This document shows, one piece after another, positions 15,445 to 16,851 of a stretch of DNA of 42,756 nt (its first letter is position 1; every line of letters begins with the position of its first letter). The DNA lies in IMG/VR virus record IMGVR_UViG_3300009406_000001, positions 1-42,756 of that record; one strand, written 5' to 3'. The notes below the pieces were generated by a model, which searched no databases, had not been told where the DNA came from, and saw only the letters and a list, made by a program, of their open reading frames with translations. The DNA comes from a virus. A program made the translations under genes and the position numbers.

Positions 15445-15870
15445 ATGAAAACACTAAACAAACATGATATCCAAAAGCTTGAAGAATACTGGTCCAATTA
15501 TAAACAGAACAAGCAGCAGCTTAAATATCGCGAGTGGGAGTTAATGAGCCGTAACTCTGATGACGAAAACACGGGTGGTGGTGCAAACTCTGTCCGTACA
15601 ATCTCTAAGCCGACTGAACAGCTTGCAACACGATTGATAGAGGATAAGCTGTATCAGAATCTAAAACAGATTACGCACGTTGTGGAGAGCCTATATCATC
15701 AGTCTGAAGGAGACTTGAAGGTCATTGTGGACATGCGATATTGGGATGCTGAACGTAATTGTTATGAATGGGAAGAGATTGCCGATCAGCTGAATATGTC
15801 CAGGAGTAAAGTGTTGAGATTACGGAATGGGTTGTTGGATGATACGGCTGATTTGATTGGGTGGGTTTGA
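15445..15870 (+). CDS. ArpU/RinA-type late transcription activator
   Basis: The 141-residue protein resembles the ArpU/RinA/DUF722 group that activates late phage genes. The C-terminus (about 105-135) holds a sigma-region-4-like helix-turn-helix, EWEEIADQLNMSRSKVLRLR, after the characteristic DLKVIVDMRYW. It is near the end of the middle operon, directly before the structured intergenic region and the packaging genes, which is the usual place for this regulator. AAAGGGGTG precedes the ATG. Confidence 0.75.
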   Translation: MKTLNKHDIQKLEEYWSNYKQNKQQLKYREWELMSRNSDDENTGGGANSVRTISKPTEQLATRLIEDKLYQNLKQITHVVESLYHQSEGDLKVIVDMRYWDAERNCYEWEEIADQLNMSRSKVLRLRNGLLDDTADLIGWV

Positions 15871-16152: not shown

Positions 16153-16171
16153 TAACACAGTACGAACAAAC

Positions 16172-16449
16172 GGTGAACTTCTTAACACCAAGGAAGTTCA
16201 CTCTCACCTGTAGTAATCTGATAGAGTAGGTTCCTTTGGTTAGCGACCTACTCATTTCCCCTCTTTTACATCCGCATACACGGCACATAGTAAACTATGT
16301 AGAACTGCGCTAACGGGTATGCGGATGTTCCTTTTATATACCTTGAAGACTATATATCATAGAGTCACACAATAATCGCGGGCTAGTAGGTAAGGGTTGA
16401 CTAGCTATCATTAGGACTTGCTATGGTATGTAGTCTTGAGAGTATATAA
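16172..16449 (+). ncRNA. Candidate structured RNA: four consecutive hairpins
   Basis: The 339-bp gap 16153-16491 has no plausible gene but dense complementarity. HP1: 16173-16183 with 16191-16201, 11 pairs, 7-nt loop. HP2: 16224-16232 with 16245-16253, 9 pairs. HP3: 16268-16279 with 16317-16328, 12 perfect pairs, enclosing ACATAG/CTATGT (16285-16290, 16295-16300). HP4: 16334-16362 with 16421-16449, one unbroken register of 29 positions with 27 pairs (24 Watson-Crick, 3 G-U) and an inner GCTAGT/ACTAGC hairpin (16382-16387, 16400-16405). The G-U pairs in HP1, HP2 and HP4 would be A-C mismatches on the other strand, so the RNA is probably rightward. Roles could be a late leader, antiterminator, terminator cluster or phage ncRNA. 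Confidence 0.6.
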
Positions 16450-16491
16450 TAGTTAATTAGCGACTACTATAAATTGTGGAGGGATGATCAC

Positions 16492-16809
16492 ATGGCAAAT
16501 AAGCCAGTAGCTGCCCAATGTAATTTGGGATGCGAAAAGGAATTCACCATTACAAAGTTCCGCAATAAGAAAGTTAAAAATGGTATCGAGAAAACATTCT
16601 TCCGTTGTCCTCATTGCAAACATGAGTACGTTAGTTTCTATGCGAGTGATGAAACGCGTCGATTGCAGAAGGATATGCGCAAGCTACAAGTAGTTATTAA
16701 GAATGCCGCGAGCGATAAAGAATACGAAAACCATCTTGAAAGGTACATGGCATTGAAAGCAGAGATAAAGCTAAGCATGGATGATGCCAGGGTAATAGCG
16801 ACTGAATAA
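16492..16809 (+). CDS. Zinc-ribbon phage protein, 105 residues
   Basis: Cys10, Cys14 (CNLGC) and Cys39-x-x-Cys42 (CPHCKH) form a zinc ribbon; a helical charged C-terminus follows (RRLQKDMRKLQVVIKNAASD). ATG 16492 is chosen because GTGGAGGG lies 8 bases before it. First gene after the structured non-coding stretch and followed by an intrinsic terminator, so it may form its own short transcript. Function unknown. Confidence 0.65.
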   Translation: MANKPVAAQCNLGCEKEFTITKFRNKKVKNGIEKTFFRCPHCKHEYVSFYASDETRRLQKDMRKLQVVIKNAASDKEYENHLERYMALKAEIKLSMDDARVIATE

Positions 16810-16820
16810 ATAATACATTC

Positions 16821-16851
16821 AAAGTCTACTCAATCGAGTGGGCTTTTTCTT
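16821..16851 (+). terminator. Rho-independent terminator
   Basis: Arms 16821-16831 and 16836-16846 give 11 pairs (two G-U type) around a 4-nt loop AATC, followed by TTCTTA after the T-rich 3' arm. It lies 12 bp after the zinc-ribbon gene stop. Confidence 0.75.

Follow-up and report, generated by a model that had tools for sequence, protein, structure and literature searches.

Our main finding is that the last of four hairpins in a gene-free gap of a prophage is a member of a conserved family of structured RNAs. We regard the existence of this family as practically certain, and the family is new, being absent from Rfam and earlier uncatalogued. The gap as a whole is best read as a late promoter with a mobile cassette leader downstream of it. 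The window, that is, the entire stretch of DNA analyzed, is 42,756 nucleotides long and corresponds to the prophage record IMGVR_UViG_3300009406_000001. Its first part (positions 1 to 127) is the 3' end of a tmRNA gene, and ssrA is probably the attachment site of this prophage. This part shares 87% identity with the tmRNA of Lysinibacillus (now Ureibacillus) yapensis, which makes a relative of this species the probable host.

The gap extends over 339 nucleotides (16153-16491), as originally predicted, and the next ATG lies at 16492. It is preceded by a late activator gene, an identity already proposed and now supported by matches to phrog_36 and to an Alt-like activator profile, and by an 84-amino-acid open reading frame; it is followed by a cassette gene, and then by genes for HNH (17383), TerS (17875) and TerL (18215). 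All four of the consecutive hairpins announced for the gap were found (Table 1; hairpin 3 itself spans 16268-16328). Their arms measure 9 bp or more in hairpin 1 and 9 bp in hairpin 2, hairpin 3 consists of a perfect stem with an inner hairpin, and the long stem of about 29 positions in hairpin 4 has mismatches, for example G.G, as its sole defects. The end given for the hairpin stretch, 16449, needs correction, since hairpin 4 ends at 16453. The + strand of the gap folds at -107.4 kcal/mol, compared to -80.1 +/- 5.0 for dinucleotide shuffles (z -5.49; 0 of 100 shuffles), and the - strand gives a z of -4.35. Taken singly, hairpins 4, 3 and 2 have z values of -5.0, -4.4 and -3.6, respectively.

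Table 1. Features of the gap and its surroundings (positions in the window)
Feature	Position	Strand	Remarks
Late transcription activator (ArpU/Ltr-like)	15445-15870	+	phrog_36 (8e-29); Alt-like activator phrog_2198
Hairpin 1, 29-bp palindrome GTGAACTTC-N11-GAAGTTCAC	16173-16201		Probable DNA operator of the activator
Extended -10 TGATAGAGT of predicted late promoter	16219-16227	+	Predicted start near 16234
Hairpin 2, inverted repeat over the -10 and predicted start	16224-16253		Stem p=0.003
Hairpin 3 and T-rich tract, terminator-like	16268-16338	+	12-bp stem 16268-16279/16317-16328
Hairpin 4, member of new conserved structured-RNA family	16332-16453	+	Models R1-R3; R2 118.2 bits, 3e-26
-10-like TATAAA (16468-16473) and Shine-Dalgarno GGAGGG (16478-16483) of cassette gene	16468-16483	+	
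Cassette gene, 105 aa	16492-16809	+	phrog_1315 (4e-25)
Terminator-like hairpin closing the cassette	16821-16848	+	Read from the sequence; corresponding terminator in L009

The four hairpins had been proposed to form one RNA, an idea ruled out by the separate occurrence of hairpins 1, 3 and 4 in relatives. A close relative (L009/L089), 92% identical across hairpins 1 to 3, has no hairpin 4; L091 carries hairpin 1 and, separately, a copy of hairpin 4, and in L090 hairpin 1 is accompanied by a plain terminator.

Hairpin 1 most likely acts as DNA. Homologues of the activator, among them those of L089-L092 and L099, lie upstream of the same palindrome, which is present downstream of most of the activator homologues examined. 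Its arms vary with the activator clade (GAACTT..AAGTTC, GCACTT..AAGTGC or GGACTT..AAGTCC), and its distance to TGATA, the extended -10, is fixed at 19 nucleotides in most of the window clade; this clade-wise change and the constant spacing point to an operator of the late activator as its most likely role. The layout suggests an activator site that overlaps the -35 region. No second palindrome of equal quality is present in the window, and the extended -10 aligns with TGATATTRT or TGNTAGTAT of the relatives. At the place of hairpin 2, L266 has a stem of another sequence (p=0.007), and stems are also visible by eye in L091, L099 and L090, while most other relatives show no clear stem there. Hairpin 2 is therefore probably real, having been re-made with a different sequence; because it extends across the -10 and predicted start, the late mRNA would contain half of it at most. 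The possibility that this repeat is a repressor operator with further sites in the phage was considered and rejected, as the window holds no second copy.

Hairpin 3 (-24.8 kcal/mol) is terminator-like and would form the upstream boundary of the cassette. An automatic terminator scan missed it (score 6.5), the inner hairpin being larger than the loop that the scan allows. L090 has a classical terminator in its place; in L009 hairpin 3 is 92% identical and is followed by a different sequence in place of hairpin 4, and the terminator matching the one that closes the cassette in the window comes after hairpin 3, with no cassette in between. More generally, leaders that carry the element match those that lack it as far as the T-run of the terminator and diverge from there on, which indicates that the element moves together with an accessory cassette, of which it is the 5' part. 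Gene linkage proved a dead end: none of the phages retrieved with the neighboring 105-amino-acid protein as query has such a gap. A homologue of its gene does lie directly downstream of a copy of the element in L313.

A first covariance model (R1), built from the window and L091 copies, found relatives of hairpin 4 in at least 11 of the 261 host-family genomes, and an improved model (R2) in at least 36 of them, these counts being lower bounds since some candidates per genome were scored. After fetching of the context, 65 distinct copies were retained, distributed over the 36 host genomes and a small number of phage contigs; IMG/VR yielded 52 copies, which partly overlap the 65, and an exact 20-mer of the Lysinibacillus subclass is present in 55 IMG/VR contigs, some of which derive from these same strains. 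Because the copies share descent and are exchanged, their numbers are not numbers of independent events; the nonredundant Shine-Dalgarno comparison and the diversity of neighboring genes, both described below, partly offset this relatedness. Among the genomes searched, the family is confined to the host family of the seed genome. A sample of 400 Bacilli genomes gave 4 positives, all already positive in the host-family search, and a phylum-wide sample gave 0 of 399, a result that is uninformative as the sample held no positive-control genome.

The structure is maintained by compensatory change. Across 47 aligned copies, 93.7% of the cells of hairpin-4 pairs are paired on one strand, against 35 to 47% with slid partners. 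Double changes affect 20 of 34 pairs and total 101 cells, for a shuffle mean of 32.6, and no measure was reached in 500 shuffles. Because the 47-copy alignment was fitted to the model, a fairer test is offered by a MAFFT alignment of 16 sequences, which has 10 double-change pairs (reached in 3 of 500 shuffles) and 28 double-change cells (0 of 500). Over the 65 copies, the pairs comprise 1,415 Watson-Crick, 311 G-U and 37 A-C cells; this preference of G-U over A-C wobbles identifies the conserved molecule as the + strand RNA. For hairpin 4, then, the original prediction of a structured RNA on the transcribed strand, located after the late activator and before the packaging genes, is borne out: the G-U bias extends from the window to the whole family, and the covarying pairs that it demanded of homologues are present. 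A simple repeat or MITE was rejected in view of the few copies per genome, their single orientation and the RNA-type substitutions.

That no known RNA class had been recognized also agrees with our searches. With Rfam release 15, neither the gap nor the loci of the relatives gave a covariance-model match at or near the gathering score, and the only matches outside the gap or element in these sequences were to tmRNA and one tRNA; blastn against annotated phages and plasmids gave no match, and among the papers searched none described the element. Its invariant features are a G.G mismatch within the long stem and a 1x3 internal loop. The terminal part is variable, so that the length of the copies ranges from about 85 to 162 nucleotides. 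Sites of this type may also hold a divergent class B (GAAAAGTRAGTATC...GGTACTTRCTTTTGA), whose middle stem is entirely different (AAAAGTRAGTATC / GGTACTTRCTTTT). Present in L294, L295, L300, L303, L308, L317, L325, L331, L337 and L340, it shares with class A the adjacency to a terminator and the G.G mismatch, and in arrays it sometimes follows class A.

Copies of hairpin 4 reside in a strict context. They start precisely at the base of an intrinsic-terminator hairpin, and its U-tract is the 5' edge of the element; this adjacency is found for 56 of the 65 copies, compared to 6 after shuffling (45 of 51 compared to 6 in IMG/VR contigs). A start codon follows 35 to 65 nucleotides downstream in 41 of the 65 copies and 37 of 51 in IMG/VR, and a late activator upstream and/or packaging genes downstream are found on the same strand for 52 of 65 and 48 of 52, respectively. 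Upstream activators are either of the ArpU type or of a second, unrelated type in which a weak GerE-like helix-turn-helix is seen, the latter type being recognized with queries taken from the same loci. The genes that follow are highly diverse: 43 proteins encoded downstream fall into 34 unrelated clusters, and the products include RES, DUF4145, DUF2971 and membrane proteins, as well as the candidate defense families PDC-S31 (1.7e-54) and PDC-S64 (6e-14). Two such candidate defense genes are located at L311:10512-11438 and about 50 nucleotides behind the element in L272. Some leaders contain arrays of two or three copies in a row, 736 to 920 bp apart, and in a few phages (L343, L345, L279, L270) the element lies directly upstream of terS or HNH genes.

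Other structured leaders were encountered in the relatives. In L110, L116, L118, L121, L123 and L124, a conserved late leader about 60 to 150 nucleotides downstream of the palindrome comprises a hairpin GCGYACGGAAAUGCGC with loop CGGAAA (re-paired as GUGUACGGAAAUACAC in L091), then CACGUUCGCUUGUACGUG, then a terminator; the CACGUUCGCUUGUACGUG loop can pair with a downstream ACAAGC, possibly as an H-type pseudoknot. In L267, L269, L271, L277 and L278, a strongly structured, conserved stretch of about 220 nucleotides (GGCAGGTTCGGGGAGTTGGGTGG...), located 100 to 350 nucleotides upstream of the element, separates it from the activator of the second type. Neither of these leaders has a match in Rfam. 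The Lysinibacillus late leaders L294, L299, L305 and L308 have, upstream of the terminator, a repeated segment AACGTGGTGTAGCTCTACCACGGTT...AAAAGTGAGCTAACTCGACA that looks like another leader hairpin.

The segment between the element and the gene is also structured. In most copies it holds an arm complementary to the Shine-Dalgarno sequence (SD), for example CAUCUUC/GGAGGUG or ACCUCUC/GGGAGGU. In leaders with the element, the probability that the SD is unpaired is 0.17, compared to 0.34 when the upstream part is shuffled, and 44 of 79 leaders rank within the bottom 10% of their own shuffles for SD accessibility. For 20 nonredundant element genes the mean is 0.24; the 316 control genes from these loci average 0.53 (p=4e-6). 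The window copy is weakly paired (0.42, compared to 0.50 shuffled). A -10-like TATNAT or TATAAW is present in 11 of the 20 element genes and 44 of the 316 controls, and TATNAT is often located in the loop of the SD hairpin. These nested motifs have, by eye, no good or consistent -35; a start 7 nucleotides downstream of the TATAAA in the window would land within the SD.

These features suggest a mobile cassette leader similar to that of T4 gene e, in which a late read-through mRNA would be left untranslated and a nested promoter would supply a translatable one. The upstream terminator would insulate the cassette; as the element starts at this terminator, only read-through mRNA from the late promoter would contain it, barring a promoter within the gene upstream. 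In this long mRNA the segment downstream of the element would fold and bury the SD, which would keep translation of the accessory gene low in lytic growth. A short transcript starting from TATNAT inside the SD hairpin would lack the 5' arm, leaving the SD free for translation. If the analogy holds, the lysogen would express the cassette gene, which would be muted in the late read-through mRNA. As the least certain step, hairpin 4 itself, with its long stem, invariant G.G mismatch and internal loop, would be bound by RNase III or a double-strand RNA-binding protein, its likeliest partners, and isolate the cassette message. We hold this mechanism tentatively, as the SD of the window is weakly buried and some copies precede terS or HNH genes, for which silencing makes little sense; moreover, SD burial does not explain the conservation of hairpin 4 itself. 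More doubtful still is the broader proposal that a mobile RNA leader recognized by its structure allows accessory, often defense-like, genes of the late operon to be expressed in the lysogen from a nested promoter and silenced late, with no self-harm at induction.

The conservation of hairpin 4 might instead reflect RNA processing, in which the double-stranded RNA, formed only once the adjacent terminator is passed, would be cut by RNase III to part the terminator-capped upstream mRNA from the cassette mRNA, following the logic of lambda sib/tI or of T7 intergenic sites. About 25 bp of nearly unbroken stem is a length compatible with RNase III, and the structure is kept despite sequence drift, but the invariant G.G mismatch and the conserved internal loop suggest a more specific partner; we consider this account rather unlikely. 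An antiterminator of the HK022 put type, as first envisaged, or more generally a put/nut-like processive one, would have hairpin 4 modify the polymerase transcribing it and so render the cassette terminator non-polar on the late operon. The element does lie in late operons and upstream of each cassette's own terminator. A put-like RNA should, however, precede the terminators it suppresses, whereas the 56 copies that start at a terminator foot precede the next one only, and passage of the terminator ahead of the first element has to occur without its help. Other terminator-flanked genes of the same leaders also lack the element (for example, in L327), and we judge this role improbable.

Equally improbable, in our estimation, is a DNA-level recombination or insertion element, whether an attC-like cassette site, a terminator-targeting MITE or an intron relative. 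Cassette arrays, diverse genes and the fixed insertion behind terminators, the latter also expected of a group II(C) intron, are in its favor. Against it, the module boundary is the T-run upstream of the element and not a point within it, unlike an integron attC junction, copies are few per genome and mostly sense to the gene, the excess of G-U over A-C on one strand and the double changes fit RNA, and no intron domain was matched in Rfam. Least probable is a context insulator, a rigid fold that would, with no trans-acting partner, keep the ribosome-binding region from pairing upstream as cassettes move: the short constant spacing to the start codon and the diverse contexts would suit it, but the SD is buried rather than exposed and specific unpaired residues are invariant.

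Whatever its function, the family combines strong covariation with an unusually strict context: behind a terminator, before an interchangeable accessory gene and in the leader of a late operon. If the proposed switch is true, it explains how prophages can keep accessory or defense genes downstream of a late promoter without lytic expression, and the RNA model becomes a marker for finding such cassettes.

Several known systems offer points of comparison. In lambda sib/tI retroregulation, and at phage RNase III sites, a long hairpin forms only in RNA that passes an adjacent terminator. Hairpin 4 would likewise be confined to RNA reading through the adjacent terminator but, unlike sib/tI, it lies upstream of its gene, is associated with many genes and has invariant unpaired residues, and it is at most a candidate for cleavage. 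HK022 put is a phage-encoded structured antiterminator RNA of a leader region; hairpin 4 differs from it in its fold and in lying behind a terminator, not ahead of it. Those late promoters of the Ltr/ArpU/RinA family in phages of Gram-positive bacteria that are described in PMC13123087 have direct repeats. As in these promoters, a small basic activator gene is found directly upstream of conserved repeats and a -10, with predicted binding of the activator, whereas the window has one palindrome about 19 nucleotides before an extended -10. Finally, in the leaders of T4 gene e, soc and I-TevI the SD is sequestered in long transcripts and a late promoter is nested in the hairpin (PMC3014915). The leaders described here resemble that of gene e in that the SD is predicted to be buried in read-through RNA, family-wide if weakly in the window copy, and in the -10-like motif often seen within the hairpin, which would allow a short transcript to escape. 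Unlike gene e, a separate conserved RNA and a terminator precede the SD hairpin, this hairpin is common to unrelated cassette genes of temperate phages, and it is the long transcript that would be the late one.
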